DNA of 64,000 bases from Paracyclopina nana (Eukaryota; Arthropoda; Copepoda; Cyclopoida; Cyclopettidae), in contig JAGUCH010000001.1 of NCBI GenBank assembly GCA_019096065.1, positions 8,308,001-8,372,000 of the forward strand. Direction: 5' to 3'. Position numbers and translations under genes: made by a program. Below the pieces are notes generated by a model that searched no databases, had not been told where the DNA came from, and worked only from the letters and a program-made list of their open reading frames with translations. Position 1 is the first letter of the stretch; each line of letters begins with the position of its first letter. Positions 37,449 to 63,025 of this stretch are shown in pieces.

Positions 37449-38675
37449 TTACTGTGCTTTTTCAGAGGCCCTAAATTGTATAAGCACAATGAGATACGTG
37501 ACAAAATTAGCTGATATGGAAGTGAGCAAAGGCTTATTCAAAACGAAATAGTCCATCGCAGATAATCCCTCAAAATTTCGCAGTTTTCCCAATATTTTCT
37601 CGGAAATGTCTTGACACTCGAGCTTATCTATGGCCTTGAGAAGTAATGCAATTGCATCAACAACGAGATGAGACTTTATAATTAAATTGTACAAAATGTA
37701 GATCTGAATCAAGCCAAACAGGATGAAGCTCGAAATAAATATGGCCTGATCATTGCTAACATGATTTCCACCCATCAAAAACGTAAACGACCGAAACAAA
37801 GAGCAAATCGAAGTGGTTGTGAAGCCCAAGCACATGATGAACAGCTGAGGAGCAAACATTTCATTGATTGCATGCAAAGCGTTAGCGAAGTCTTCAACAT
37901 GTGCAGATAAAGGGCAAAACTTCTTTTCCATCACAAGCTCAGTCAAGCCATCGCACCATGCCAAAAGCGAATTAATTTCCGAGTTGAAAATCGTCAAAAA
38001 TCCAAAGATGTGAAATGCGCTATAGAGAATCATGATGTAAAAGCAGGCACCCGACAAAATGAAGTAGCTCAATGGAATTTGAGGAAAGACATTCAACGAG
38101 CCGAAATAATGAAAGCTTCCAACTGACATTCCAATTGCAACCCAAGTGAACCCGAAGGCGCTAAAAAGGAACAAAAGACATTTTAGAGCTCATTATATGA
38201 AAGATGCTTACACTAAAATGGACGATATAGAATATTTCCTTGCATGAATGTTCGGAAATATGATCACTTCTTCTAGATGGGCCTCGAATGCTGCTAATCT
38301 GGACGATAAGCTGTATCCATTCCAATTTAGAGCAAACATTACGAACGATGTCAAAATTAAGGGTGCCAAAAATCCCAGCTTTTCGGTAGTAGTTCGTGAT
38401 GAGGACAGAAACATGTCCAGGTAGGTCATCATGTTTTGGTCAGGATTGAAGTATCTTGACATGTTCCAAATGTTCAAAGCAAGGCTCGCGTAAATAATGA
38501 GTAACCACGCGCCACTTTTTGCGTAGTACGCGAATCGGCTTTTGGGCTTGACCACGATCTTAATTCCATATTCTGAAGATTCTCTTTTTATTGTGCATGG
38601 GAAGCAATTAAAAAATTCGAATATCATTAAAATTGACGCGTTTTGCTGAACGAAACCAACTCCACTCTTGGCCAT
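37449..38675 (-). CDS. Gustatory receptor family protein (7TM chemoreceptor)
   Basis: It is a ligand-gated chemoreceptor of the arthropod Gr family, expected in the plasma membrane of sensory neurons with the N-terminus inside. Two exons, 38675-38212 and 38160-37449, join in phase 2 over a 51-nt intron (391 aa, usual for the family). Seven hydrophobic segments can be placed, at about residues 55-70, 103-122, 156-174, 183-213, 267-292, 300-322 and 360-384. The family signature TYLIVLIQF lies in the last one, just before the C-terminus RASEKAQ. No stop or frameshift is seen. The ligand cannot be inferred. A damaged relative lies directly upstream on the same strand, indicating a former tandem cluster. 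Confidence 0.85.
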
Positions 38676-39895: not shown

Positions 39896-41079
39896 CTATG
39901 CCTCGTTTCCTTAACAGACCCTGGGCCTACCAGATTCCTAGTTTTGATACATTGATTCGGATTCGATTTTTCAATTTTGGGCCCAAACCCCTTGTCACTA
40001 TGTGGTTTGATGGGGTTTTGAGGTTGGCGGCCCCCAGGATGCTCTAAGGGGGTCAAATGGGGCCTGGTCTTATTAGCTGATTGAAACAAGGCAAATCTTT
40101 GCGGGGGCGTGGCTGGAGCCATGGGGGGGGGAGGGGGAGGGGGTGTCCAGATGTTCAGGGGAAAAAAGTTGGAAAAAGTCCTCAGCAAGGCCAAAAAAGC
40201 CAAAATTTGCGTTTTCAGACCCGACTTTGAGGTCGATTTTCTCCAAAGTCCCCAAATGGATTTTGGATTTTTTGCTTTGAATGGTAGATAAAGATCCAAA
40301 TTGTCACCAAAAAAAATTTGGGAGGGTGTTATTCCTCGTTTGTCCGCTACGAGCTCTCAAAGTTGGACTTTTTCACAGTAGTCAAAAATTCATGATTGGT
40401 CACAGTGGCCAAGTTGAGGGTTGGAATGTGGGCCACTTGGTCTGGAAGACAACTCTAGGGTCTCAGCAGTTGGTATCAGGTCCAACATCCATGGTAGGCC
40501 AAGGCCAGGCCTAGTCAGGAGCCTTAAAGCCGAGCCATCGCGACGGCCATTTCGTTTCAGTGGCAATTCCAAGGGCCTTGCTGCCAATTCTAAGGACAGA
40601 TTGTTGACCATTTGGCCTTGATCACTCCTTCAGGGTCACAGCAGATGATTTCAAGCCTAACATGCAAGGTACAGCAAGGCCAGCATAATCCAGGGGGCTT
40701 GGAGTTCACTTGTGGCATAGGCGATTTGGCTACAGAAAGTCTTTGAGGGTCTTGATGGCCAAGTTCTCTGATCAGGTGAGGATTTATTGAGCTATATCAC
40801 TCCTTTGTCATCCAGGGGCCAGAGCTTATTTGCCAACTCAGCTGCCAATGGTTCAATGAAAGGCAGCATGGATCACAGCCAAGACCAAGGTTGGAAAGTG
40901 GATTTTTTAGGCTGAATCAACTCAAATGGATGCAAGGAGATGAGAGAAAGTCTATTTTTCATGGTGTTATGCTCCCTTCTTCAACCAGGAGTGCCAAAGT
41001 TTCGTATGAACAAAAGTCAAAAATGGCTTCAATAAAGAGATCTTTGGATTGCAGCCCAGACAACTGATCGAACGTCACT
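39896..41079. other. Intergenic border of the satellite domain
   Basis: It holds a G-rich tract and faint ~180-bp repeats (compare 40455-40530 with 40632-40705). The word CTATGCCTCGTTTCCTTAA at 39896 also occurs near 19712. No gene is supported. Confidence 0.4.
40122..40143 (+). other. G-rich tract
   Basis: A run of nine G, then runs of five separated by single A or T, can form a G-quadruplex in principle. Confidence 0.6.
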
Positions 41080-44000
41080 TTTTTGGTCTAGCTCAGCTCA
41101 GCTGGTGCCAAAGAGAATTTAGAAGGTGCAAACTTTCAGGTGTTGTGCACCTGTCATGATTCTGGATGTGCAAAACTGTTCTGGAGCAACTGCCACTGCT
41201 ATGCTACATTTGCTGCGACTCGATAATGAAAAAGGTCTCGCTCTCGAAAAGTCCTCGATGGAATGTCCCTTTTTTGGTCTAGCTCAGCTCAGATGGTGCC
41301 AAAGAGAATTTAGAAGGTGCAAACTTTCAGGTGTTGTGCACCTGTCTTGATTCTGGATGTGCAAAACTGTTCTGGAGCAACTGCCACTGCTATGCTACAT
41401 ATGCTGCTACTTGATAATGAAAGAGGTCTCGCGCTCGAAAAGCCCTTGATGAAATGTCCCTTTTTTGGTCTAGCTCAGCTCAGCTGGTGCCGAAGATAAT
41501 TTAGAATGTGCAAACTTTCAGGTGTTGTGCACCTGTCTTGATTCTGGATGTGCAACACTGTTCTGGAGCAACTGCCACTGCTATACTACATTAATGCGTC
41601 TCGATAATGAGAAAGGTCTCGTGCTCGAAAAGTCCTCGATGGAATGTCCCTTTTTTGGTCTAGCTCTGCTCAGCTGGTGCCAAAGAGAATTCAGAAGGTG
41701 CAAACTTTCAGGTGTTGTGCACCTGTCATGATTCTGGATGTGCAAAACTGTTCTGGAGCAACTGCCACTGCTATGCTACACATGCTGCGACTCTATAATG
41801 AGAAAGACTCGCGCTCGAAAAGTCCTCGATGGAATGTCCCTTTTTTGGTCTAGCTCAGCTCAGCTGGTGCCAAAGAGAATTTAGAAGGTGCAAACTTTCA
41901 GGTGTTGTGCACCTGTCTTGATTCTGGATGTGCAAAACTGTTCTGGAGCAACTGCCACTGCTATGCTACATTTGCTGCTACTTGATAATGAAAAAGGTCT
42001 CGCGCTCGAAAAGTCCTCGATGGAATGTCCCTTTTTTGGTCTAGCTCAGCTCAGCTGGTGCCAAAGAGAATTCAGAAGGTGCAAACTTTCAGGTGTTGTG
42101 CACCTGTCATGATTCTGGATGTGCAAAACTGTTCTGGAGCAACTGCCACTGCTATGCTACATTAATGCGACTCGATAATGAGAAAGGTCTCGCACTCGAA
42201 AAGTCTTCGATGGAATGTCCCTTTTTTGGTCTAGCTCAGCTCAGCTGGTGCCAAAGAGAATTTAGAAGGTGCAAACTTTCAGGTGTTGTGCACCTGTCAT
42301 GATTCTGGATGTGCAAAACTGTTCTGGAGCAACTGCCACTGCTATGCTACATATGCTGCGACTTTATAATGAGAAAGGTCTCGCACTCGAAAAGTCCTCG
42401 ATGGAATGTCCCTTTTTTGGTCTAGCTCAGCTGGTGCCAAAGAGAATTCAGAAGGTGCAACTTTCAGGTGTTGTGCACCTGTCATGATTCTGGATGTGCA
42501 AAACTGTTCTGGAGCAACTGCCACTGCTATGCTACATTAATGCGACTCGATAATGAGAAAGGTCTCGCACTCGAAAAGTCTTCGATGGAATGTCCCTTTT
42601 TTGGTCTAGCTCAGCTCAGCTGGTGCCAAAGAGAATTCAGAAGGTGCAAACTTTCAGGTGTTGTGCACCTGTCATGATTCTGGATGTGCAAAACTGTTCT
42701 GGAGCAACTGCCACTGCTATGCTACATATGCTGCGACTTTATAATGAGAAAGATCTCGCGCTCGAAAAGTCCTCGATGGAATGTCCCTTTCTTGGTCTAG
42801 CTTAGCTCAGCTGGTGCCAAAGAGAATTCAGAAGGTGCAAACTTTCAGGTGTTGTGCACCTGTCATGATTCTGGATGTGCAAAACTGTTCTGGAGCAACT
42901 GCCACTGCTATGCTACATATGCTGCGACTTTATAATGAGAAAGGTCTCGCACTCGAAAAGTCTTCGATGGAATGTCCCTTTTTTGGTCTAGCTCAGCTCA
43001 GCTGGTGCCAAAGAGAATTTAGAAGGTGCAAACTTTCAGGTGTTGTGCACCTGTCATGATTCTGGATGTGCAAAACTGTTCTGGAGCAACTGCCACTGCT
43101 ATGCTACATATGCTGCGACTTTATAATGAGAAAGGTCTCGCACTCGAAAAGTCCTCGATGGAATGTCCCTTTTTTGGTCTAGCTCAGCTGGTGCCAAAGA
43201 GAATTCAGAAGGTGCAAACTTTCAGGTGTTGTGCACCTGTCATGATTCTGGATGTGCAAAACTGTTCTGGAGCAACTGCCACTGCTATGCTACATTAATG
43301 CGACTCGATAATGAGAAAGGTCTCGCACTCGAAAAGTCCTCGATGGAATGTCCCTTTTTTGGTCTAGCTCAGCTCAGATGGTGCCAAAGAGAATTTAGAA
43401 GGTGCAAACTTTCAGGTGTTGTGCACCTGTCATGATTCTGGATGTGCAAAACTGTTCTGGAGCAACTGCCACTGCTATGCTACATATGCTGCGACTTTAT
43501 AATGAGAAAGATCTCGCGCTCGAAAAGTCCTCGATGGAATGTCCCTTTCTTGGTCTAGCTCAGCTCAGATGGTGCCAAAGAGAATTTAGAAGGTGCAAAC
43601 TTTCAGGTGTTGTGCACCTGTCATGATTCTGGATGTGCAAAACTGTTCTGGAGCAACTGCCACTGCTATGCTTCATATGCTGCTACTTGATAATGAAGAA
43701 GGTCTCGCTTTCGAAAAGTCTTTGATGGAATGTTCCTTTATTGGTCTAGCTCAGCTCAGATGGTGCCAAAGAGAATTTAAAATGTGCAAACATTCAGGTG
43801 TTGTGCACCTGTCATGATTCTGGATGTGCAAAACTGTTCTGGAGCAACTGCCACTGCTATGCTACATATGCTGCTACTTGATAATGAAGAAGGTCTCGCA
43901 CTCGAAAAGTCCTCGATGGAATGTCCCTTTTTTGGTCTAGCTCAGCTGGTGCCAAAGAGAATTCAGAAGGTGCAACTTTCAGGTGTTGTGCACCTGTCAT

Positions 44001-45374
44001 GATTCTGGATGTGCAAAACTGTTCTGGAGCAACTGCCACTGCTATGCTACATTAATGCGACTCGATAATGAGAAAGGTCTCGCACTCGAAAAGTCCTCGA
44101 TGGAATGTCCCTTTTTTGGTCTAGCTCAGCTGGTGCCAAAGAGAATTCAGAAGGTGCAACTTTCAGGTGTTGTGCACCTGTCATGATTCTGGATGTGCAA
44201 AACTGTTCTGGAGCAACTGCCACTGCTATGCTACATACGCTGCGACTCGATAATGAAAAAGGTCTCGCACTCAAAAAGTCCTCGATGGAATGTCCCTTTT
44301 TTGGTCTAGCTCAGCTCAGCTGGTGCCAAAGAGAATTCAGAAGGTGCAAACTTTCAGGTGTTGTGCACCTGTCATGATTCTGGATGTGCAAAACTGTTCT
44401 GGAGCAACTGCCACTGCTATGCTACATATGCTGCGACTTTATAATGAGAAAGATCTCGCGCTCGAAAAGTCCTCGATGGAATGTCCCTTTCTTGGTCTAG
44501 CTTAGCTCAGCTGGTGCCAAAGAGAATTCAGAAGGTGCAAACTTTCAGGTGTTGTGCACCTGTCATGATTCTGGATGTGCAAAACTGTTCTGGAGCAACT
44601 GCCACTGCTATGCTACATATGCTGCGACTTTATAATGAGAAAGGTCTCGCACTCGAAAAGTCTTCGATGGAATGTCCCTTTTTTGGTCTAGCTCAGCTCA
44701 GCTGGTGCCAAAGAGAATTTAGAAGGTGCAAACTTTCAGGTGTTGTGCACCTGTCATGATTCTGGATGTGCAAAACTGTTCTGGAGCAACTGCCACTGCT
44801 ATGCTACATATGCTGCGACTTTATAATGAGAAAGGTCTCGCACTCGAAAAGTCCTCGATGGAATGTCCCTTTTTTGGTCTAGCTCAGCTGGTGCCAAAGA
44901 GAATTCAGAAGGTGCAACTTTCAGGTGTTGTGCACCTGTCATGATTCTGGATGTGCAAAACTGTTCTGGAGCAACTGCCACTGCTATGCTACATTAATGC
45001 GACTCGATAATGAGAAAGGTCTCGCACTCGAAAAGTCTTCGATGGAATGTCCCTTTTTTGGTCTAGCTCAGCTGGTGCCAAAGAGAATTCAGAAGGTGCA
45101 AACTTTCAGGTGTTGTGCACCTGTCATGATTCTGGATGTGCAAAACTGTTCTGGAGCAACTGCCACTGCTATGCTACATATGCTGCGACTTTATAATGAG
45201 AAAGGTCTCGCACTCGAAAAGTCTTCGATGGAATGTTCCTTTTTTGGTCTAGCTCAGCTCAGCTGGTGCCAAAGAGAATTTAGAAGGTGCAAACTTTCAG
45301 GTGTTGTGCACCTGTCATGATTCTGGATGTGCAAAACTGTTCTGGAGCAACTGCCACTGCTATGCTACATATGC
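41080..45374 (+). repeat. Satellite 1 array, block 1 (~191-bp monomer)
   Basis: About 22 head-to-tail monomers share landmarks GGTGTTGTGCACCTGTCATG, CAGCTGGTGCCAAAGAG and GGTCTCGCACTCGAAAAG. Most are 191 bp, and some lack 6-9 bp. Variant monomers (ATTAATGCGACTCG versus ATATGCTGCGACTTT) recur in blocks. A stretch near 42590-43200 reappears near 44290-44900, showing a higher-order duplication of about 1.7 kb. The 60-90-codon frames here are by-products of the repeat. Confidence 0.95.
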
Positions 45375-45390
45375 GGCCGCGTCTAAAAGC

Positions 45391-45488
45391 TGCGCCGACC
45401 CGCACCAACCTGCACCGACCCGCACCGACCCGCACCGACCCGCACCAACCCGCACCAACCCGCACCAAGCCGCACCAACCCGCACCAT
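45391..45488 (+). repeat. Decanucleotide repeat, left arm
   Basis: About ten units of CGCACCGACC / CGCACCAACC. They are the reverse complement of the run at 52567-52722. Confidence 0.95.
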
Positions 45489-45659
45489 ACCACACAAACC
45501 AAAAAAAAACACAATAAAAAGCAAACTAAACATAGATAAAGCACTTTATTAGTAGCAAGCTAAAGCTTAAAGGCACAACTGGCCATGAATAAAGCCATTT
45601 ATCAAAACTATCTAAAAATGAATAAATTCATGTGGAAATGTCAGGTGCTAGCTAGCATG

Positions 45660-47705
45660 AACTTAAAACTTCAAATTTTAAAGTGGTAACTGCAATGCCT
45701 GGCCAAGAAACAGCCATTTCTGCTCTCCTATGTAGCGAAGCAAAACTTCAAGTGCAATTTCAAACCCGCGCCAAGAAGTAACATTTTTCAAAGTGGTTAC
45801 TGCAAAAGTTAGCTAGTAGCATGACCTTTCTGGCACAAGTGGCCTTTTTGGCCTTTGCAAGAAAAGTTACTGCAATGGCTGGCCAAGAAACAGCCATTTC
45901 TGCTCTCCTATGTAGCGAAGCAAAACTTCAAGTGCAATTTCAAACCCGCGCCAAGAAGTAACTTTTTCAAAGTGGTTACTGCAAAAGTTAGCTGGTAGCA
46001 TGACCTTTCTGGCACAAGTGGCCTTTTTGGCCTTTGCAAGAAAAGTTACTGCAGTGGCTGGCCAAGAAACAGCCATTTCTGCTCTCCTATGTGGCAAGCA
46101 AAACTTCAAGTGCAATTTCAAACCCCGCCATGAAGTAACTTTTTCAAAGTGGTTACTGCAAAGTTAGCTAGTAGCATGACCTTTCTGGCACAAGTGGCCT
46201 TTTTGGCCTTTGCAAGAAAAGTTACTGCAGTGGCTGGCCAAGAAACAGTCATTTCTGCTCTTCTATGTGAAGCAAAACTTCAAGTGCGATTTCAAACCCG
46301 CGCCAAGAAGTAACTTTTTCAAAGTGGTTACTGCAAAAGATAGCTGGTAGCATGACCTTTCTGGCACAAGTGGTCTTTTTGGCCTTTGCAAGAAAGTTAC
46401 TGCAGTGGCTGGCCAAGAAATAGCCATTTCTGCTCTCCTATGTGTGAAGCAAAACTTCAAGTGCAATTTTAAACCCAGCCAGAAGTAACTTTTTCAAAGT
46501 GGTTACTGCAAAAGTTAGCTGGTAGCATGACCTTTCTGGCACAAGTGGTCTTGGCCTTTGCAAGAAAAGTTACTGCAGTGGCTGGCCAAGAAAAAGCCAT
46601 TTCTGCTCTCCTATGTAGCGAAGCAAAACTTCAGAAGCGATTTCAAACCCGTGCCAGAAGTAACTTTTTCAAAATGGTTACTGCAAAGTTAGCTAGTAGC
46701 ATGACCTTTCTGCCACAAAGTGGCCTTTTGGGCCTTTGCAAGAAAAAGTTACTGCAGTGGCTGGCCAAGAAACAGCCATTTCTGCTCTCCTATGTAGCAA
46801 AGCAAAACTTCAAGTGCGATTTCAAACCGCGCCAAAGTAACTTTTTCAAAGTGGTTACTGCAAAGATAGCTGCTAGCATGACCTTTCTGGCACAAGTGGT
46901 CTTTTTGGCCTTTGCAAGAAAAGTTACTGCAGTGGCTGGCCAAGAAACAGCCATTTCTGCTCTCCTATGTAAAGCAAAACTTCAAGTGCAATTTCAAACC
47001 CGCGCCAGAAGTAACTTTTTCAAAGTGGTTTCTGCAAAGTTAGCTGCTAAGCATGACCTTTCTGGCACAACTGGCCTTTTTGGCCTTTGCAAGAAAAAGT
47101 TACTGGAGTAGCTGGACAAGAAACAGCCATTTCTTCTCTCCTATGTAGCGAAGCAAAACTTCAAGTGCAATTTCAAACCCGCGCCAGAAGTAACATTTTT
47201 CAAAGTAGTTACTGCAAAGTTAGCTGGTAGCATGACCTTTCTGGCACAAGTGGCCTTTTTGGCCTTTGCAAGAAAAGTTACTGCAGTGGCTGGCCAAGAA
47301 ACAGCCATTTCTGCTCTCCTATGTAGCAAAGCAAAACTTCAAGTGCAATTTCAAACCCGCGCCAGAAGTAACATTTTTCAAAGTAGTTACTGCAAAAGTT
47401 AGCTGGTAGCATGACCTTTCTGGCACAAGTGGCCTTTTGGCCTTTGCAGAAAAGTTACTGCAGTGGCTGGCCAAGAAACAGCCATTTCTGCTCTCCTATG
47501 TAGCGAAGCAAAACTTCAAGTGCGATTTCAAACCCGCGCGCCAAGTAACTTTTTCAAAGTGGTTACTGCAAAGTTAGCTGGTAGCATGACCTTTCTGGCA
47601 CAAGTGGCCTTTTGGGCCTTTCCAAGAAAAGTTACTGCAGTGGCTGGCCAAGAAATAGCCATTTCTGCTCTCCTATGTAGCGATGCAAAACTTCAAGTGT
47701 GATTT
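45660..47705 (+). repeat. Satellite 2 array, left arm (~178-bp monomer)
   Basis: About 11-12 monomers carry GCATGACCTTTCTGGCACAA, GCAGTGGCTGGCCAAGAAAC and AGCAAAACTTCAAGTGC. Small indels are frequent between 46100 and 47600. Confidence 0.95.
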
Positions 47706-47890
47706 CAAACCTCAATCTGCTTTGCATTAAGCCTTATTATGGCACAGCTAAAGTCAACATTGTAAGTCCAACTTTTTTAGGTAGGACTTATGAAGTCCAA
47801 TCAGCAGTTGGGCCTAGAGATGCCTTAAAGTAATTTTTTGACTCAAATAGTTCCCAACTGCCTCAGCAAAAGTTAGGCCTCAAGAAAAAT
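47706..47890. other. Central loop of foldback element 1
   Basis: About 185 bp of sequence without similarity to satellite 2 lies at the point where monomer orientation reverses. It contains a small hairpin (AAGTCCAAC / AGGACTT words) and no useful frame. Confidence 0.75.
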
Positions 47891-50800
47891 CCTGCTTCGC
47901 TACATAGGAGAGCAGAAATGGCTGTTTCTTGGCCAGCCACTGCAGTAACTTTTCTTGCAAAGGCCCAAAAGGCCACTTGTGGCAGAAAGGTCATGCTACC
48001 AGCTAACTTTTGCAGTAACCATTTTGAAAAAAGTTACTTCTTGGCGCGGGTTTGTAATCGCTCTTGAAGTTTTGCTTCGCTACATAGGAGAGCAGAAATG
48101 GCTGTTTCTTGGCCAGCCACTGCATTAACTTTCTTGCAAAGGCCAAAAAGACCACTTGTGCCAGAAAAGGTCATGCTACCAGCTAACTTCTTTGCAGTAA
48201 CTACTTTGAAAAAAGTTACTTGGCGCGGTTTGAAATTGCACTTGAAGTTTTGCCTGCTACATGCAGGAGAGCAGAAATGGCTGTTTCTTTGGCCGGCCAC
48301 TGCAGTAACTTTTCTTGCAAGGCAAAAGGCCACTTGTGGCAGAAAGGTCATGCTACCAGCTAAATTTTGCAGTAACCATTTTGAAAAAAGTTACTTCTTG
48401 GCGCGGGTTTGAAATCGCGCGAGTTTTGCTCGCTACATAGGAGAGCAGAAATGGCTGTTTCTTGGTCAGCCACTGCAGTAACTTTACTGCAAAGGCCAAA
48501 AGGCCAGTTGTGCCAGAAATCATGCTACTTTGCAGTAACCACTTTGAAAAAAGTTTCTTCTTGGCGCGGAAATTGCACTTGGTTTTGTTCTACATAGGAG
48601 AGCAGAAATGGCTATTTCTTGCTAGCCAAAAAAAGGCCAGTTGTGCCAGAAGGTCATGCTACCAGCTAACTTTTGCAGTAACCACTTTGAAAAGTTACTT
48701 CTTGGCCGGTTTGAAATCGCACTTCGCGCGAAGTTTTGCTTTCAGGAGAGCAGAAATGGCTGTTTCTTGGCCAGCCACTGCAGTAACTTTCTTGCAAAAG
48801 GCCAAAAGACCACTTGTGCCAGAAAGGTCATGCTACCAGCCAACTACGTGGCTTGCAGTAACTACTTTGAAAAAAGTTACTTGGCGCGGGTTTGAAATTG
48901 CACTTGGTTTTGCTTGCCACAGCTATGGAGAGCAGAAATGGCTGTTTCTTGGCCGGCCACTGCAGTAACTTTTCTTGCAAGGCCAAAAGGCCACTTGTGC
49001 CAGAAAGTCATGCTACCAGCTAACTTTGCAGTAACCACTTTGAAAAAGTTGCTTCTTGTAGTTTGAAATTGCACTTGGCGAGCGCTTCGCATATGGAGAG
49101 GCAGAAATGGCTGTTTCTTGGCCAGCCACTGCAGTAACTTTTCTTGCAAAGGCCAAAAAGGCCAGTTGTGCCAGAAAGGTCATGCTACCAGCTAACTTTG
49201 CAGTAATACTTTGAAAAAGTTACTTCTTGCGCGGGTTTGAAATTGCACTTGGTTTTGTCGCTTACATAGGAGAGCAGAAATGGCTGTTTCTTGGCCAGCC
49301 ACTGCAGTAACTTTACTTGCAAAAGGCCAAAAAGGCCAGTTGTGCCAGAAAGGTCATGCTACCAGCTAACTTTGCAGTAACCACTTTGAAAAAGTTACTT
49401 CTTGGCGCGGGTTTGAATTGCACTTGAAGTTTTGCTTCGCTTATAGGAGAGCAGAAATGGCTATTTCTTGGCCAGCCACTGCATTAACTTTTCTTGCAAG
49501 GCCAAAAGGCCGCTTATGCCAGAAAAGATAAATGCTACCAGCTAACTTTTGCGGTAACCACTTTGAAAAAAGTTACTTCTTGGCGCGGGTTTGAAATCGC
49601 ACTTGAAGTTTTGCTTCGCTGTAGGAGAGCAGAAATGGCTGTTTCTTGGCCAGCCACTACAGTAACTTTTTCTTGCAAAGGCCCAAAAAGGCCAGTTGTG
49701 CCAGAAAGGTCATGCTAGCAACTAACTTTTGCAGAAACCATTTGAAAAAGTTACTTCTTGGCAGCGGGTTTGAAATCGCTCTTGAAGTTTTGCTTCGCTA
49801 CATAGGAGAGCAGAAAATGGCTATTTCTTGGCCAGCCACTGCATTAACTTTTCTTGCAAAGGCCCAAAAGGCCACTTGTGGCAGAAAGGTCATGCTACCA
49901 GCTAAATTTTGCAGTAACCATTTTGAAAAAGTTACTTCTTGGCGCGGGTTTGAAATCGCACTTGAAGTTTTGCTTCTACATGGGAGAGCAGAAATGGCTG
50001 TTTCTTGGTCAGCCACTGCAGTAACTTTACTTGCAAAGGCCAAAAAGGCCAGTTGTGCCAGAAAGGTCATGCTACCAGCTAACTTTTGCAGTAACCACTT
50101 TGAAAAAGTTTCTTCTTGGCAACGGGTTTGAAATTGCACTTGAAGTTTTGCTTCGCTACATAGGAGAGCAGAAATGGCTATTTCTTGGCCAGCCACACTG
50201 CAGTAACTTTTCTTGCAAAGGCCAAAAAGGCCAGTTGTGCCAGAAAGGTCATGCTACCAGCTAACTTTTGCAGTAACCACTTTGAAAAAAGTTACTTCTT
50301 GGCGCGGGTTTGAAATCGCACTTGAAGTTTTGCTTTGCTACATAGGAGAGCAGAAATGGCTGTTTCTTGGCCAGCCACTGCAGTAACTTTTCTTGCAAAG
50401 GCCCAAAAGGCCACTTGTGGCAGAAAGGTCATGCTACCAGCTAACTTTTGCAGTAACCATTTTGAAAAAGTTACTTCTTGGCGCGGGTTTGAAATCGCTC
50501 TTGAAGTTTTGCTTCGCTACATAGGAGAGCAGAAATGGCTGTTTCTTGGCCAGCCACTGCAGTAACTTTTCTTGCAAAGGCCAAAAAGACCACTTGTGCC
50601 AGAAAGGTCATGCTACCAGCTAACTTTTGCAGTAACTACTTTGAAAAAAGTTACTTCTTGGCGCGGGTTTGAAATCGCACTTGAAGTTTTGCTTCGCTAC
50701 ATAGGAGAGCAGAAATGGCTGTTTCTTGGCCAGCCACTGCAGTAACTTTTCTTGCAAAGGCCAAAAAGGCCACTTGTGCCAGAAAGGTCATGCTACCAGC

Positions 50801-52475
50801 TAACTTTTGCAGTAACCACTTTGAAAAAGTTACTTCTTGGCGCGGGTTTGAAATTGCACTTGAAGTTTTGCTTCGCTACATAGGAGAGCAGAAATGGCTG
50901 TTTCTTGGCCAGCCACTGCAGTAACTTTTCTTGCAAAGGCCAAAAAGGCCAGTTATTGCCAGAAAGGTCATGCTACCAGCTAACTTTTGCAGTAACCACT
51001 TTGAAAAAAGTTACTTCTTGGCGCGGGTTTGAAATTGCACTTGAAGTTTTGCTTCGCTACATAGGAGAGCAGAAATGGCTGTGTCATGGCTAGCCAGTGC
51101 AATAACTTTACTTGAAAACGACAAAAACGCAAGGAGTGCCAGAAAGGTCATGCTAACGGCTAACTTTTGCAGTCACCACTTTGAAAAAGTTACTTTTTGG
51201 CGCGGGTTTGAAATTGCACTTGAAGTTTTGCTTCGCTACATAGGAGAGCAGAAATGGCTATTTCTTGGCCAGCCACTGCATTAACTTTTCTTGCAAAGGC
51301 CAAAAAGGCCAGTTGTGCCAGAAAGGTCATGCTACCAGCTAACTTTTGCAGTAACCACTTTGAAAAAGTTACTTCTTGGCGCGGGTTTGAAATCGCACTT
51401 GAAGTTTTTGCTTTGCTACATAGGAGAGCAGAAATGGCTGTTTCTTGGCCAGCCACTGCAGTAACTTTTCTTGCAAAGGCCCAAAAGGCCACTTGTGGCA
51501 GAAAGGTCATGCTACCAGCTAACTTTTGCAGTAACCATTTTGAAAAAAGTTACTTCTTGGCGCGGAGTTTGAAATCGCTCTTGAAGTTTTGCTTAGCTAC
51601 ATAGGAGAGCAGAAATGGCTATTTCTTGGCCAGCCACTGCATTAACTTTTTCTTGCAAAGGCCAAAAAGGCCACTTGTGCCAGAAAGGTCATGCTACCAG
51701 CTAACTTTTGCAGTAACCACTTTAAAAAAGTTACTTCTTGGCGCGGGTTTGAAATCGCACTTGAAGTTTTGCTTCGCTACATAGGAGAGCAGAAATGGCT
51801 GTTTCTTGGCCAGCCACTGCAGTAACTTTTCTTGCAAAGGCCCAAAAAGGCCACTTGTGGCAGAAAGGTCATGCTACCAGCTAACTTTTGCAGTAACCAT
51901 TTTGAAAAAAGTTACTTCTTGAGCGCGGGTTTGAAATCGCTCTTGAAGTTTTGCTTCGCTACATAGGAGAGCAGAAATGGCTGTTTCTTGGCCAGCCACT
52001 GCAGTAACTTTTCTTGCAAAGGCCAAAAAGGCCAGTTGTGCCAGAAAGGTCATGCTACCAGCTAACTTTTGCAGTAACCACTTTGAAAAAGTTTCTTCTT
52101 GGCGCGGGTTTGAAATCGCACTTGAAGTTTTGCTTCGCTACAAAGGAGAGCAGAAATGGCTGTTTCTTGGCCAGCCACTGCAGTAACTTTTCTTGCAAGG
52201 CCAAAAAGACCACTTGTGCCAGAAAGGTCATGCTACCAGCTAACTTTTGCAGTAACCACTTTGAAAAAGTTACTTCTTGGCAGCGGGTTTGAAATCGCAC
52301 TTGAAGTTTTGCTTCGCTACAAAGGAGAGCAGAAATGGCTGTTTCTTGGCCAGCCACTGCAGTAACTTTTCTTGCAAAGGCCCAAAAGGCCACTTGTGCC
52401 AGAATGGTCATGCTAGCAGCAGTAACCACTTAAAAAAAAGTTACTTCTTGGTGCGGGTTTGAAATTTCTTTTGAA
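47891..52475 (-). repeat. Satellite 2 array, right arm (inverted)
   Basis: About 25 monomers lie in the opposite orientation to the left arm. Those from about 49.4 kb outward are regular, whereas 48.1-49.3 kb is full of small deletions. Confidence 0.95.
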
Positions 52476-52566
52476 GTTTTGATTAAAAGCTCATGCTGGC
52501 AGAAGCCTTTTTTAAGCTTTTTTTGTATTCTATTGGTTTGTGCGGTATGGTGCCGGTTTTTGTGGG

Positions 52567-52722
52567 TCAGTGCGTGTCGATGCGTGTCGGTGCGGCTTGG
52601 TGCGGGTCAGTGCGGGTCGGTGCGGGTCGGTGCGGGTCGGTGCGGGTCGGTGCGGGTCGGTGCGGGTCGGTGCGGGTCGGTGCGGGTCGGTGCGGGTTGT
52701 TGCGGGTCGGTGCGGGTTTTAG
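52567..52722 (-). repeat. Decanucleotide repeat, right arm
   Basis: About 15 units of GTGCGGGTCG form the inverted partner of 45391-45488 and are longer than the left run. Confidence 0.95.
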
Positions 52723-53296
52723 ACAACCCGAACATACGCTGCGACTTTATAATGAGAAAGGTCTCGCACTCGAAAAGTCCTCGATGGAATGTCCCTTTTT
52801 TGGTCTAGCTCAGCTGGTGCCAAAGAGAATTCAGAAGGTGCAACTTTCAGGTGTTGTGCACCTGTCATGATTCTGGATGTGCAAAACTGTTCTGGAGCAA
52901 CTGCCACTGCTATGCTACATTAATGCGACTCGATAATGAGAAAGGTCTCGCACTCGAAAAGTCTTCGATGGAATGTCCCTTTTTTGGTCTAGCTCAGCTC
53001 AGCTGGTGCCAAAGAGAATTCAGAAGGTGCAAACTTTCAGGTTTTGTGCACCTGTCATGATTCTGGATGTGCAAAACTGTTCTGGAGCAACTGCTATGCT
53101 ACATATGCTGCGACTTTATAATGAGAAAGATCTCGCGCTCGAAAAGTCCTCGATGGAATGTCCCTTTCTTGGTCTAGCTTAGCTCAGCTGGTGCCAAAGA
53201 GAATTCAGAAGGTGCAAACTTTCAGGTGTTGTGCACCTGTCATGATTCTGGATGTGCAAAACTGTTCTGGAGCAACTGCCACTGCTATGCTACATA

Positions 53297-53398
53297 CAGT
53301 ATGAGGCTCCGAAACTGCACACAGCGGGCTGCTCTGAAGTAGTAAATAAACCGGCCGAATTGGCTATAGCACGGTTGCATTTTCGGCGCTGCACCCTG
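53297..53398. mobile_element. 102-bp TA-flanked MITE in satellite 1
   Basis: The satellite reads ACATATGC when uninterrupted; here it is ACATA, insert, TATGC, so TA is duplicated. The insert ends CAGTATGAGGCTCCGAAACT and CAGGGTGCAGCGCCGAAAAT (inverse) are similar. A Tc1/mariner-type insertion fits. Confidence 0.85.
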
Positions 53399-55511
53399 TA
53401 TGCTGCGACTTTATAATGAGAAAGATCTCGCGCTCGAAAAGTCCTCGATGGAATGTCCCTTTCTTGGTCTAGCTTAGCTCAGCTGGTGCCAAAGAGAATT
53501 CAGAAGGTGCAAACTTTCAGGTGTTGTGCACCTGTCATGATTCTGGATGTGCAAAACTGTTCTGGAGCAACTGCCACTGCTATGCTACATTAATGCGACT
53601 CGATAATGAGAAAGGTCTCGCACTCGAAAAGTCTTCGATGGAATGTCCCTTTTTGGTCTAGCTCAGCTCAGCTGGTGCCAAAGAGAATTTAGAAGGTGCA
53701 AACTTTCAGGTGTTGTGCACCTGTCATGATTCTGGATGTGCAAAACTGTTCTGGAGCAACTGCCACTGCTATGCTACATATGCTGCGACTTTATAATGAG
53801 AAAGGTCTCGCACTCGAAAAGTCCTCGATGGAATGTCCCTTTTTTGGTCTAGCTCAGCTGGTGCCAAAGAGAATTCAGAAGGTGCAACTTTCAGGTGTTG
53901 TGCACCTGTCATGATTCTGGATGTGCAAAACTGTTCTGGAGCAACTGCCACTGCTATGCTACATTAATGCGACTCGATAATGAGAAAGGTCTCGCACTCG
54001 AAAAGTCTTCGATGGAATGTCCCTTTTTTGGTCTAGCTCAGCTCAGCTGGTGCCAAAGAGAATTTAGAAGGTGCAAACTTTCAGGTGTTGTGCACCTGTC
54101 ATGATTCTGGATGTGCAAAACTGTTCTGGAGCAACTGCCACTGCTATGCTATATTTGCTGCGACTCGATAATGAAAAAAGTCTCATGCTCGAAAAGTCCT
54201 CAATGGAATGTCCCTTTTTTGGTCTAGCTCAGCTCAGCTGGTGCCAAAGAGAATTTAGAAGGTGCAAACTTTCAGGTGTTGTGCACCTGTCATGATTCTG
54301 GATGTGCAAAACTGTTCTGGAGCAACTGCCATCTGCTATGCTACATATGCTGCGACTTTATAATGAGAAAGGTCTCGCACTCAAAAAGTCCTCGATGGAA
54401 TGTCCCTTTTTTGGTCTAGCTCAGCTCAGATGGTGCCAAAGAGAATTCAGAAGGTGCAAACTTTCAGGTGTTGTGCACCTGTCATGATTCTGGATGTGCA
54501 AAACTGTTCTGGAGAGACTGCCACTGGTATGCTATATTTGCTGCGACTTTATAATGAGAAAGGTCTCGCACTCGAAAAGTCCTCAATGGAATGTCCCTTT
54601 TTTGGTCTAGCTCAGCTCAGCTGCCAAAGAGAATTCAGAAGGTGCAAACTTTCAGGTGTTGTGCACCTGTCATGATTCTGGATGTGCAAAAATGTTCTGG
54701 AGCCACTGCCACTACTATGCTTCATTAATGCGACTTTATAATGAGAAAGGTCTCGCACTCAAAAAGTCCTCGATGGAATGTCCCTTTTTTGGTCTAGCTC
54801 AGCTCAGATGGTGCCAAAGAGAATTCAGAAGGTGCAAACTTTCAGGTGTTGTGCACCTGTCATGATTCTTTATGTGCATAACTGTTCTGGAGCAACTGCC
54901 ACTGCTATGCTACTTATGCTGCGTCTCGATAATGAGAAAGGTCTCGTGCTCGAAAAGTCCTCGATGGAATGTCCCTTTTTTGGTCTAGCTCTGCTCAGCT
55001 GGTGCCAAAGAGAATTTAGAAGGTGCAAACTTTCAGGTGTTGTGCACCTGTCATGATTCTGGATGTGCAAAACTGTTCTGGAGCAACTGCCACTGCTATG
55101 CTACATTAATGCGACTCGATAATGAAAAAGGTCTCGCGCTGGAAAAGTCCTAGATGGAATGTCCCTTTTTTGGTCTAGCTCAGCTCAGCTGGTGCCAAAG
55201 AGAATTCAGAAGGTGCAAACTTTCTGGTTTTGTGCACCTGTCATGATTCTGGATGTGCAAAACTGTTCTGGAGCAACTGCCACTGCTATGCTACATTAAT
55301 GCGACTCGATAATGAGAAAGGTCTCGCACTCGAAAAGTCCTCGATGGAATGTCCTTTTTTTGGTCTAGCTCAGCTGGTGCCAAAGAGAATTCAGAAGGTG
55401 CAAACTTTCAGGTGTTGTGCACCTGTCATGATTCTGGATGTGCAAAACTGTTCTGAAGCAACTGCCACTGCTATGCTACATATGCTGCGACTCGATAATG
55501 AGAAAGGTCTC

Positions 55512-55887
55512 GGGGGGAAGCCGGAATAGGATCTACCAGGACATACTGTGCTAGAAACTACTGTGACCGTACGGGAATAGAATCTACACCAAGACGGAGC
55601 GGAATAGGAACCACTGTGACGATACCGGTATAGAATCTACTCCATGACGGAGCAGGAATAGGAACTACTGTGACAGTACAGGAATAGAAACTACTGTGAC
55701 AGACCAGGAACAGCAATTTTTACCAGACTAGGAATGTAAACTGTTGCTAATACATACCATACTAGAATTTAGACTGACCAAATACTTTGAATTTGTTGAA
55801 ACTATAACTGATATGCAATTTACTTCACAACCTAGCTGATACTTCAGGACTTAGACAATGCACCAAGATTTGGCCTAAACTTCAAAT
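55512..55887. mobile_element. ~375-bp insert in satellite 1 with internal GGAATAG repeats
   Basis: Satellite similarity stops after GGTCTCG and resumes at GATAATGAAAAAGG. The insert's first half repeats GGAATAG-A-CTACTGTGAC units about 5-6 times with a ~40-50-bp period. The satellite word GATAATG..GGTCTCG lies on both sides, but tandem context makes a duplication ambiguous. Confidence 0.6.
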
Positions 55888-56291
55888 TGATAATGAAAAA
55901 GGTCTCGCACTCGAAATGTCCTCGATGGAATGTCCCTTTTTTGGTCTAGCTCAGCTCAGCTGGTGCCAAAGAGAATTCAGAAGGTGCAAACTTTCAGGTG
56001 TTGTGCACCTGTCATGATTCTGGATGTGCAAAACTGTGTTGTTCATTTGTAGCACTGATAAGACTCGAGTCCCATCAGTGACTAAATAAATGAGGACGGC
56101 CTGCACTGATGGGACGTACTGATGGGACCTCAAGGGAAAGTTGGGTCAAATGAGTTCCTGAGGTCAGTAGAATTCATTTGATACCAAATACTTGAAAATG
56201 GGTGGGTTGTCCCATCAATGCCATTAGCCATCAGAACGATGACCACTCCCTAATTTCATTTTTTGAATTATCTCGCAACCTTTCCCAATTA

Positions 56292-56412
56292 GGAGTGGTC
56301 ATTTCTTGGCCATCAGTGAGTGGTCATTTTTTTGGCCATCAGTGAGTGGTCATTTTTTGGCCATCAGTGAGTGGTCATTTTCTGGCCATCAGTGAGTGGT
56401 CAATGTCCTTCA
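56292..56412 (+). repeat. ~26-bp tandem repeats near the left end of structure 2
   Basis: Five units contain GAGTGGTCATTTTTTGGCCA followed by TCAGT. They decay at the right end. Confidence 0.9.
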
Positions 56413-56449
56413 AGGAGTGGTCAGTTATTTCAGCTCATTTTATAGGCAG

Positions 56450-57440
56450 ATCCACTGCATTTGACTTTGCCTCACGTTTTGTGTCAAGTTGACTCAAACT
56501 ATCAGCTGCAACTGACATTTTGACTGAAATTTGACTAAGTCAAGAATTTCAAGTTTTCATATCAGTCACCTAGTAGTATAACGCGATGCGCAAGTTTTGG
56601 CATTTGCGAATTCAAAAAGTGTCATAAGTTTGACTTTGCCTCACATTTTGAGTCAAGTTGACTCAAACTATCAGCTGCAACTGACATTTTGACTGAAATT
56701 TGACTAAGTCAAGTTTCGTGTTTTATTAGCAGTAAAGAGAAGTACGCGCGATGCATGAAGTTTTCCACTCTTACGAATTCAAAATGAAGCAAAAATTTGA
56801 CTTTGCCTCATATTTTGGGTCAAGTTGACTCAAGCTATCGACTGCAACTGACATTTTGACACAAAATTGACTTGGTCAAGAATTTCGTGTTTTATTAGCA
56901 GTAAAAGAGAAGTACCGCGCGATGCGCAAGTTTTCACTCTTACGAATTCAAAATGAAACAAAAATTTGACTTTGCCTCATATTTTGGGTCAAGTTGACTC
57001 AAACTATAAGCTGCAACTGACATTTTGACTGAAATTTGACTAAGTCAAGAATTTCGAGTTTTCATAGCAGTCACCTATAAGTATAACGCTATGCGCAAGT
57101 TTCGGTATTTGCAAATTCAAAAAGTGTCATACGTTTGACTTTGCCTCACATTTTGAGTCAAGTTGACTCAAACTATCAGCTGCAACTGACATTTTGACTG
57201 AAATTTGACTAAGTCAAGAATTTCGAGTTTTCATAGCAGTCACCTATAAGTATAACGCGATCCGCAAGTTTCGCCATTTGCGAATTCAAAAAGTGTCATA
57301 TGTTTGACTTTGCCTCACATTTTGAGTCAAGTTGACTTAAATTTTCAGCTGCAACTGACATTTTAGCTGAAATTAGACTCAGTCAAGAATTTCGAGTTTT
57401 CATAGCTGTCATCTAGTAAAAAAACGCGATGCGCAAGTTT
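56450..57440 (+). repeat. Satellite 3 array, left arm (~160-bp monomer)
   Basis: About six monomers carry TTTGACTTTGCCTCA, GAGTCAAGTTGACTCAAACT and CGCGATGCGCAAGTTT. Each contains opposed TGAGTCA and TGACTCA words. Confidence 0.93.
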
Positions 57441-57459
57441 ACCAAGCTTAGCCTATTAA

Positions 57460-57681
57460 GGCCCTGTTCACCTGCATTATTATCAGCAAAATAACGAGCG
57501 ATATTATGCTGATATTTGCAAATATCCGGTATTTGTAAAATCATTTTTCAGATTTTGACTTCGGAATCGATCTATTGGTACCAAAAGCCATCCTGCTCCA
57601 AAATAAAAATTCCCAGTTTCTCAGTATTTCTCTCCAATATTTTGCCAAAATAACGGCCATAATAAGCAGGTGAACAGGCCC
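57460..57681. mobile_element. 222-bp PIF/Harbinger-like MITE in satellite 4
   Basis: The ends GGCCCTGTTCACCTGC and GCAGGTGAACAGGCCC are near-inverted. TAA flanks both sides (57457-57459 and 57682-57684). The surrounding AAGCTTAGCC and AAGTTTT words are satellite 4, so the element split a monomer. Confidence 0.8.
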
Positions 57682-60200
57682 TAAGTTTTCATGGACTCAT
57701 TTACTCAAAGCATTGCTTTTTGAGTCTTAGCTTAAGCCATGCAAGTCTTTTTTTATGACTAGACTTTTGCATAAGTCAAGTCCAGTTCTTAGGAGCTTAA
57801 GAAAGCTTAGCCAAATAAGTTTTTGTGGACTAATTTTCTTAGAGCATTGCTTTTTGAGTCCAAGCTTAAGTCATGCAAGTCTTTCTTATGACTAGACTTA
57901 GCCTTGGGAGCCAAAGTCTCATCAAGGAGTGGTCATTTTTTCACTCAAGCTTGGAAATCTGTCTGGCTAGGAATAAATCTTATTAAAAGTCCCATCAAGG
58001 AGTGGTCTTTTGCATAAGTCAAGTCCAGTTCTTAGGAGCTTAAGAAAGCTTAGCCAAATAAGTTTTTGTGGACTAATTTTCTTAGATCATTGCTTTTTGA
58101 GTCCAAGCTTAAGTCATGCAAGTCTTTCTTATGACTAGACTTAGCCTTGGGAGCCAAAGTCTCATCAAGGAGTGGTCATTTTTTCGCTCAAGCTTGGATA
58201 TCTGTCTGGCTAGGAATAAATTAAAAGTCCCATCAAGGAGTGGTCTTTTGCATAAGTCTAGTCCAGTTCTTAGGAGCTTAAGAAAGCTTAGCCAAATAAG
58301 TTTTTGTGGACTAATTTTCTTAGAGCATTGCTTTTTGAGTCCAAGCTTAAGTCATGCAAGTCTTTCTTATGACTAGACTTAGCCTTGGGAGCCAAAGTCT
58401 CATCAAGGAGTGGTCATTTTTTCACTCAAGCTTGGAAATCTGTCTGGCTAGGAATAAATCTTTTTAAAAGTCCCATCAAGGAGTGGTCTTTTGCATAAGT
58501 CTAGTCCAGTTCTTAGGAGCTTAAGAAAGCTTAGCCAAATAAGTTTTTGTGGACTAATTTTCTTAGAGCATTGCTTTTTGAGTCCAAGCTTAAGTCATGC
58601 AAGTCTTTCTTATGACTAGACTTAGCCTTGGGAGCCAAAGTCTCATCAAGGAGTGGTCATTTTTTCACTCAAGCTTGGAAATCTGTCTGGCTAGGAATAA
58701 ATCTTATTAAAAGTCCCATCAAGGAGTGGTCTTTTGCATAAGTCAAGTCCAGTTCTTAGGAGCTTAAGAAAGCTTAGCCAAATAAGTTTTTCTGGACTAA
58801 TTTTCTTAGAGCATTGCTTTTTGAGTCCAAGCTTAAGTCATGCAAGTCTTTCTTATGACTAGACTTAGCCTTGGGAGCCAAAGTCTCATCAAGGAGTGGT
58901 CATTTTTTCACTCAAGCTTGGAAATCTGTCTGGCTAGGAATAAATCTTATTAAAAGTCCCATCAAGGAGTGGTCTTTTGCATAAGTCAAGTCCAGTTCTT
59001 AGGAGCTTAAGAAAGCTTAGCCAAATAAGTTTTTATGGACTAAATTACTTAAAGCATTGCTTTTTGAGTCCAAGCTTAAGTCATACAAGTCTTTCTTATG
59101 ACTAGACTTAGCCTTGGGAGCCAAAGTCTCATCAAGGAGTGGTCATTTTTTCGCTCAAGCTTGGAAATCTGTCTGGCTAGGAATAAATCTTATTAAAAGT
59201 CCCATCAAGGAGTTGTCTTTTGCATAAGTCAAGTCCAGTTCTTAGGAGCTTAAGAAAGCTTTGCCAAATAAGTTTTTGTGGACTAATTTTCTTAGAGCAT
59301 TGCTTTTTGAGTCCAAGCTTAAGTCATGCAAGTCTTTGTTATGACTAGACTTAGCCTTGGGAGCCAAAGTCTCATCAAGGAGTGGTCATTTTTTCGCTCA
59401 AGCTTGGAAATCTGTCTGGATAGGAATAAATCTTTTTAAAAGTCCCATCAAGGAGTGGTCTTTTGCATAAGTCAAGTCCAGTTCTTAGGAGCTTAAGTAA
59501 GCTTAGCCAAATAAGTTTTTGTGGAGTAATTTTCTTAGAGCATTGCTTTTTGAGTCCAAGCTTAAGTCATGCAAGTCTTTCTTATGACTAGACTTAGCCT
59601 TGGGAGCCAAAGTCTCATCAAGGAGTGGTCATTTTTTCGCTCAAGCTTGGATATCTGTCTGGCTAGGAATAAATCTTATTAAAAGTCCCATCAAGGAGTG
59701 GTCTTTTGCATAAGTCTAGTCCAGTTCTTAGGAGCTTAAGAAAGCTTAGCCAAATAAGTTTTTGTGGACTAATTTTCTTAGAGCATTGCTTTTTGAGTCC
59801 AAGCTTAAGTCATGCAAGTCTTTCTTATGACTAGACTTAGCCTTGGGAGCCAAAGTCTCATCAAGGAGTGGTCATTTTTTCACTCAAGCTTGGAAATCTG
59901 TCTGGCTAGGAATAAATCTTATTAAAAGTCCCATCAAGGAGTGGTCTTTTGCATAAGTCAAGTCCAGTTCTTAGGAGCTTAAGAAAGCTTAGCCAAATAA
60001 GTTTTTATGGACTAAATTACTTAAAGCATTGCTTTTTGAGTCCAAGCTTAAGTCATACAAGTCTTTCTTATGACTAGACTTAGCCTTGGGAGCCAAAGTC
60101 TCATCAAGGAGTGGTCATTTTTTCGCTCAAGCTTGGAAATCTGTCTGGCTAGGAATAAATGCTATTATAAGTCCCATCAAGGAGTGGTCATTTGTGGTCA
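57682..60200 (+). repeat. Satellite 4 array (~243-bp monomer)
   Basis: About ten highly similar monomers carry GAAAGCTTAGCCAAATAAG, GACTTAGCCTTGGGAGCCAA and CCCATCAAGGAGTGGTC. The latter word, or its CTCATCAAGGAGTGGTC variant, occurs twice per monomer. Confidence 0.95.
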
Positions 60201-60289
60201 TTTTTGGCTCAATCTTGAAAATCTGCCTAAAACATCCTGATGTACTACTATTTCGAAACTGCAAAGAAACTTGAAATTCTGGACAAGGA

Positions 60290-62640: not shown

Positions 62641-62727
62641 ATGTGCCTTTGGCCTTGCTGTTAAAAGTGGCTCTTAAAAGTCTTATTATGGAGTGGTTAA
62701 AGCTATTCAAGTACCATTATGGAGTGG

Positions 62728-62835
62728 TCTAATAGCATGTCCCATCAGTGTATAATAAGATAGGAAAAGTCAGACTGAGTCCCATCAGTGTATAATAAGA
62801 CCATAAGGTCCCATCAGTGTATAATAAGAATAGAA
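62728..62835 (+). repeat. CCCATCAGTGTATAATAAGA short repeats
   Basis: Three copies of CCCATCAGTGTATAATAAGA occur at 62740-62830 near the right end of structure 2. They are related to the CATCAGTG words at the left end. Confidence 0.85.
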
Positions 62836-63025
62836 TGTCTCAGATTTTGATGAAACTTGGCAAAATGATAGATTTTAGGGTCTAGTTTCCGAAAAAAATT
62901 ACCCCAGCTCCCCCTGACCACCAGGAGCTGAGAAATCGCCGAGTGGTCAATTTGTCCATCAGTGCTACATACCGTCCTTCCTTTAACCACTCGTCCTATC
63001 AGTGCTACAGTGCGCACGAATATAT

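Follow-up and report, generated by a model that had tools for sequence, protein, structure and literature searches.

A foldback transposon with satellite arms in the copepod Paracyclopina nana, and evidence that the arms probably grow in place

The stretch of DNA analyzed here (the window, 64,000 bp; G000:C1:8308001-8372000) comes from the 91.95-Mb, 10-contig genome of the copepod Paracyclopina nana. It contains an array of a 191-bp tandem repeat, satellite 1, interrupted by an element whose two arms consist of another tandem repeat, satellite 2 (Table 1). A preliminary description, made from the letters alone, had proposed a foldback with mirrored decanucleotides, mirrored satellite-2 arms, and a small loop inside satellite 1. 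Tandem-repeat and inverted-repeat scans of the window bore this out, placing the arms in opposite orientation on either side of a loop of about 180 bp. The repeat unit is a satellite monomer, as described, with a size by the tandem-repeat scan of 179-180 bp instead of approximately 178 bp. Aligned copies of the element share one plan, which from left to right reads tip, decanucleotides, left subterminal stretch, satellite 2 reversed, loop, satellite 2 forward, right subterminal stretch, decanucleotides, and tip. A fuller version of the family loop, 882 bp long, is found in the copy at C4:8488700. Rfam gave no match in the window or at loci L024 and L056.

Table 1. Parts of the foldback element and of the satellite array that hosts it (positions in the window)
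Feature	Position	Strand	Basis
Foldback element, 7,356 bp, left (GGCCGC) to right (AACCCG) end	45375..52730	+	25 aligned copies, 21 with perfect target duplications
Target-site duplication, left copy TACATATGC	45366..45374	.	copy alignment and empty-site match
Target-site duplication, right copy AACATACGC, 7/9	52731..52739	.	copy alignment and empty-site match
Left tip GGCCGC + GTCTAAAA	45375..45388	+	aligned copies
Left decanucleotide array (ACCCGCACCA)n	45398..45487	+	tandem-repeat scan
Left subterminal stretch, conserved among copies	45496..45690	+	copy comparison
Left arm, satellite-2 array, 11 full monomers	45689..47711	-	
Loop, part of longer family loop; inverted relative to 13 of 18 copies compared	47712..47892	.	
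Right arm, satellite-2 array, 22 full monomers	47893..52481	+	
Right subterminal stretch	52471..52562	+	
Right decanucleotide array (GGGTCGGTGC)n	52564..52717	-	tandem-repeat scan
Right tip GGTTTTAGAC + AACCCG	52715..52730	-	aligned copies
Satellite 1 (191 bp), host array left of insertion	41066..45374	+	
Satellite 1, host array right of insertion	52740..55512	+	

The structure in the window is a real transposable element of the foldback type: it has long inverted tandem-repeat arms around a variable loop, and it belongs to a family that has moved with target duplication. Other copies with the same ends had been named beforehand as a test, and a stringent end pattern (at most three mismatches) matched the genome 30 times, with no match for the reversed-pattern control. 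A broader degenerate pattern gave 105 matches against 63 in its control, so its three-mismatch matches are largely background; 51 of the 100 broad-pattern matches listed had zero mismatches and were mostly inverted pairs. The left subterminal stretch matched 34 times. We read 35 places (34 genome loci and the window), and 24 of these yielded 25 aligned complete copies, ranging from 509 to 15,488 bp. The remaining 11 were omitted from the alignment because an end was absent, degenerate, or without a match (C2:2993700, C2:2669000, C2:7693500, C5:7108500, C3:3293500, C2:10472000, C2:10584500, C1:10039500, C1:10008500, C8:1992000, and C3:5722000); C2:7693500 retains both ends, with one tip degenerate.

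Comparison of the copies fixed the ends of the mobile unit. The left end reads GGCCGC-GTCTAAAAGC, with GGCTGC in a single copy, and the right end GGTTTTAGAC-AACCCG, with one base altered in six. The tips do not form a simple inverted repeat. Their common part begins GTCTAAAA, while the outermost 6 bp differ, with GGCCGC on the left and CGGGTT on the right. Flush with these ends is a target duplication of exactly 9 bp in 20 of the 25 copies and 10 bp in one, in place of the 8 bp suggested earlier; flanks paired across copies agreed at 9/9 bases in 0 of 600 cases. The earlier limits of 45367..52739 narrow to a mobile unit at 45375-52730, since 45367-45374 and 52732-52739 fall in the target duplication. 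In the window copy, 7 of 9 bases of the duplication agree. The right duplicate carries two changed bases, one of which is also a satellite-1 variant in the window; TACATACGC is present there once as such a variant. The empty site, also named beforehand as a test, was recovered as well: 100 bp of each flank joined with one duplicate matched uninterrupted satellite 1 over 200/200 bases at four places. Three of the 25 copies have no matching duplication, and these may be recombinants, comparable to the chimeric copies without matching duplications described for Galileo (PMC3573991).

Both arms are present and inverted in 22 of the 25 copies, three of which lack the loop; two very short copies show no right arm, and one copy no left arm. 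The left subterminal stretches (approximately 185-195 bp, gaps ignored) are identical in certain copies that lie on different chromosomes, among them C3:5024000, C4:9376400, and C1:6815500, so the family has probably been mobile recently. Among the individual loci, C4:8181500-8183599 (L040) holds two minimal copies of 1,231 and 509 bp, 360 bp apart, the smaller without a target duplication. At C5:7108500-7114500 (L046), a copy that has one end and a decanucleotide array of 27 units sits amid frames that by eye resemble C2H2 zinc-finger repeats.

We consider it likely that these copies represent a non-autonomous foldback DNA transposon, best placed in the Mutator superfamily (Mutator-like elements, MULE), whose arms of 180-bp monomers grow in place after landing. 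A transposase supplied in trans, with a source and type that we infer, would recognize the ends and insert the element with a 9-bp target duplication, and the decanucleotides would serve as its binding sites. The arms would then grow and shrink where they are by the copying of multi-monomer blocks, possibly through unequal exchange or replication slippage. Each arm would change largely independently, with occasional inter-arm exchange that would also flip the loop. The transposon would thus seed many loci with small founder arrays of two arms, and each of these would turn into its own satellite array inside the element.

The monomers themselves provide the evidence for growth in place. Satellite 2 accounts for 127,737 of the 156,703 bp in the 25 copies, with 0 to 59 full monomers per arm; of 748 monomer matches, 671 were full monomers and entered the distance and run analyses. 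Monomers of the same arm differed on average by 4.2-4.4%, those of the two arms of a copy by 5.0%, and those of different copies by 5.7-5.9%. We then searched each arm pair for its longest run of successive full monomers that differed by no more than 1.2%. Runs of four or more monomers occurred in 10 arm pairs, and all 10 were inside one copy (eight within one arm and two between its arms). The longest within-arm runs reached ten monomers, and those between copies ended at three. Because runs of at least four occur only inside one copy, the arms probably grow in place. Loops of 18 of the 25 copies match each other, and five of them, including that of the window, are inverted relative to the other thirteen. 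Together with the register comparison below, the runs and the loop inversions fit arms that grow where they are through the copying of blocks and occasionally exchange sequence with each other.

Alternatively, long satellite arrays may transpose whole, as mobile cargo whose arm length is inherited from copy to copy. We regard this as unlikely, but several observations lean toward it and away from growth in place. Copies of up to 15.5 kb carry perfect target duplications, and left and right arm lengths are moderately correlated (Spearman 0.55). Runs of at least three monomers were found in 35 arm pairs, and beside the 17 within one arm and three between arms of one copy, 15 of them were common to different copies. 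A register test on 19 of the 25 copies, in three subfamilies that we drew from subterminal identity, gave a divided answer. In the window's 5-copy subfamily, the outermost monomers were closer on register than off, and a short outer part of the arm may therefore be inherited. Within the subfamily of 11 copies, monomers were scarcely more alike on position than off it, with differences of 0.0471 against 0.0489 in the left arm (outer anchor) and 0.0473 against 0.0470 in the right. Runs of four or more matching monomers, moreover, were never common to different copies. Transposition of some long arrays as a whole, followed by reshuffling, is conceivable. Overall, the arms probably lengthen separately inside each copy after landing.

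Satellite 2 belongs to the element. A census of the whole genome with a 24-base word that occurs about once per monomer (at most one mismatch; control 0) returned 712 matches, of which 696 lie inside the 35 places read, and in every one of these places an end or a subterminal stretch of the element is present too. The paired ends at C1:1355889-1357364 enclose three further matches, and those at C1:10001507-10010406 another three, so at most 10 of the 712 are unaccounted for. With at least 702 matches within element loci, there is no sizeable free satellite-2 array in the assembly and no sign of a satellite set free. The earlier suggestion that a transposon gives rise to a satellite and spreads it holds to the extent that the repeat has been carried to many loci, where its arrays seem to grow; release beyond the element is where it falls short.

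The census also bears on whether a free satellite existed first and was captured by the transposon instead of arising inside it. Other kinds of satellite array are common in this genome, so a source for capture is conceivable, but the near absence of satellite-2 matches away from element loci makes this unlikely. A sister family points the same way. Its ends, GGCCGCGACTAAATACTGCACC and CGGTGTGTCTAAATACTGCACC, occur at 21 places (control 0), made up of ten inverted pairs, with spacings of 2.15 to 22.5 kb, and a lone end. The only pair read (C3:3703642-3705791, 2,150 bp) shows a perfect target duplication of 9 bp (TTTTACTAC) and contains decanucleotide-like repeats; its arms, built from a 180-bp satellite, are a 98% palindrome. 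The monomer of this satellite can be aligned with satellite 2 along 37 bp only, with 34 of 37 bases the same. A sister family with its own 180-bp monomer and this block in common fits descent within a transposon lineage.

A word resembling the terminal decanucleotide, ACCCGCGCCA, is present in 511 of the 671 satellite-2 monomers; an equally good match arose in 55 of 5000 simple shuffles of the consensus. In the sister monomer, CACTGCACCA adjoins the conserved block. Directly upstream of that block, each family has a word like its own end repeat, CCCGCGCCA in satellite 2 and CACTGCACCA in the sister. Tandem repeats of Galileo are described as containing additional transposase-binding sites (PMC3688188). 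This suggests that the monomer bears a putative transposase-binding site, which remains a lead, since the match is weak once rotations and dinucleotide shuffles are used (92 of 2000 for satellite 2 and 390 of 2000 for the sister).

The copies hold little besides repeats. Non-repeat DNA amounts to at most 2,038 bp per copy, and the longest mostly non-repeat frame among the 25 copies has 125 residues. The copies are therefore non-autonomous, with no transposase of ordinary size. For the superfamily, we relied on the duplications and the tips. Mutator elements make target duplications of 8-11 bp, often 9 bp (PMC6446971), a range that includes the 9 bp seen here, and the asymmetric outer tips, GGCCGC against CGGGTT, resemble those of Tm1/Phantom. 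These two traits argue for a Mutator-type foldback, like Tm1 and Tetris, rather than a P/Galileo one, and the element probably belongs to the Mutator (MULE) superfamily. We infer this assignment, since no MULE gene is tied to the element ends. The genome does contain MULE genes, with five PF10551 loci and 15 places similar to one of them, that one included; MULE proteins are encoded at C6:2031723 and C5:6359907, for instance. At locus L055 (324-1901), an open MULE transposase frame covers 526 residues of the fetched piece and has a C-terminal RING finger; FLYWCH is absent from the 526 residues scanned, and the gene is not linked to the element ends. The Mutator profile PF20700 gave no match, and because the control genomes gave none either, this result is uninformative.

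Two findings count against the Mutator placement. Between the paired ends of either family there was no MULE match, bar a nested piece of 49 residues. A transposase-bearing autonomous copy with these ends, which the preliminary description had proposed to look for, was not found in a search that covered MULE transposases, one of the ten sister elements, and all but approximately 7 kb of the interior of C1:10001507-10010406. The nested piece, which resembles the C-terminal part of a MULE transposase, lies in the loop of the copy at C9:4277000 (L031/L032). We rejected it as a remnant of the element's own transposase because it sits in a separate palindromic insert of 667 bp that has a 9-bp repeat of its own, AATTAAAGG. 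Similar short MULE pieces are found at C7:2557152, C1:10571819, C3:9284613, and C1:10470249.

P-type affinity, one of the options first offered, would make this a Galileo-like foldback mobilized by a THAP-type transposase. Members of the P superfamily make 8-bp target duplications. Galileo resembles the present element in having long terminal inverted repeats (TIRs) and, in one subfamily, tandem repeats of approximately 210 bp that contain extra transposase-binding sites (PMC3573991, PMC3688188). However, duplications of 7 bp in Galileo, and of 7-8 bp for P/Galileo in general, stand against 9 bp in 20 of the 25 copies here, and by this measure a P-type origin seems improbable to us. Although tandem and inverted repeats are prone to assembly error, a false inversion or mis-join within satellite DNA, which the preliminary description had named as its refutation, is very unlikely given 25 copies at different sites with the same ends, 21 perfect duplications of 9-10 bp, and an exact empty site. 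The arm lengths of single copies may nevertheless be mis-assembled.

Foldbacks with repetitive arms have been described before. The preliminary description likened the element to Drosophila FB; FB/NOF is a foldback with short tandem repeats within its inverted arms, and the likeness is one of description only. One close parallel is Tetris of Drosophila virilis, from which satellite-like repeats in foldback arms are already known. According to the available text of its report, Tetris is a non-autonomous foldback that its authors propose to be Mutator from duplications of 8-10 bp; its TIRs carry tandem repeats of approximately 220 bp, its array size changes by repeat duplication, and its monomer has a 37-bp stretch in common with its outer domain (PMC4079207). 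The idea of satellite birth and spread was also published there (PMC4079207). Tetris differs in having three structurally complete copies against the 25 aligned here, and in the location of its repeats: 408 of 610 TIR-220 repeats are on contigs without a flanking domain, satellite-like, against at most 10 of 712 motif matches off element loci here (PMC4079207). Up to 59 monomers per arm, asymmetric tips, and decanucleotide arrays further set the present element apart from Tetris as described in that source (PMC4079207).

Tm1 of Meloidogyne, a Mutator/foldback element, has similar ends. Its asymmetric outer motifs lie within duplications that are mostly of 9 bp and are followed by a short motif in common and by arrays of a short tandem repeat (approximately 14 bp in Tm1 against 10 bp here), and most of its copies are non-autonomous (PMC3169594). 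In contrast to our family, it includes a transposase-coding member of Phantom type with FLYWCH and MULE domains, and the portion of the paper available notes no long satellite monomers in the arms (PMC3169594). Galileo of Drosophila shares long TIRs, tandem repeats with secondary transposase-binding sites, two TIRs that change independently, and chimeric copies without matching duplications, but is described with 7-bp duplications, a P-superfamily transposase, and two or three internal repeats (PMC3573991, PMC3688188). We found no description of the present elements in searches of the open-licence literature, crustaceans and Daphnia included. The novel features are arms with as many as 59 monomers, a set of at least 25 complete copies, a repeat almost strictly confined to the element, evidence of growth within copies, and a parallel sister family.

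The origins of satellites are usually reconstructed from old arrays. Here, the insertion points are known for at least 25 separate copies of one family, built to the same design with 0-59 monomers per arm, and a sister family has another monomer. With such parallel copies, growth, exchange between inverted arms, and loop flipping become directly measurable, and the family allows a test of whether satellites begin as transposase-binding arrays. More speculatively, foldback transposons of this genome might be nurseries of satellites, in which every landing would set down a two-armed founder array, with monomers of approximately 170-190 bp, that then grows in place by block duplication while the monomers keep the binding word of the transposase. 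This broader idea is tentative; it would apply in parallel to at least four families (satellite 2, the sister repeat, and the 169-bp and satellite-1-like repeats described below). If true, selection on transposition would explain how satellites start and why the unit persists.

Further inverted satellite structures were seen during this work. At about 56048-63009 of the window, a second one lies in satellite 1, with ends TGTAGCACTGATARGA and 25-bp repeats near the left end. It has arms of a 169-bp repeat in opposite orientation (56459-57440 and 60389-62637) and a 243-bp repeat array between them (57764-60194); no target duplication was established for it. At eight or more further loci (40 of 177 candidates were scored), for example at C7:5142828-5146405, the 169-bp repeat is again present in both orientations within a few kilobases. 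Relatives of satellite 1, mostly at 71-79% identity, form short adjacent inverted pairs at C1:3760780-3761992, C2:2372523-2374310, C5:1639900-1641105, and elsewhere, and satellite 1 may for this reason be the arm of another foldback family. Judged by their layout, the 169-bp and satellite-1-like structures are candidate transposons and leads for further work. Elsewhere in the window, a long frame at 26144-27856 contains cysteine-rich repeats (TVNEQQC, NVPRQQC), its sole Pfam match falling under the family cut-off, and positions 37449-38189 encode a 7tm chemosensory-receptor domain (PF08395).

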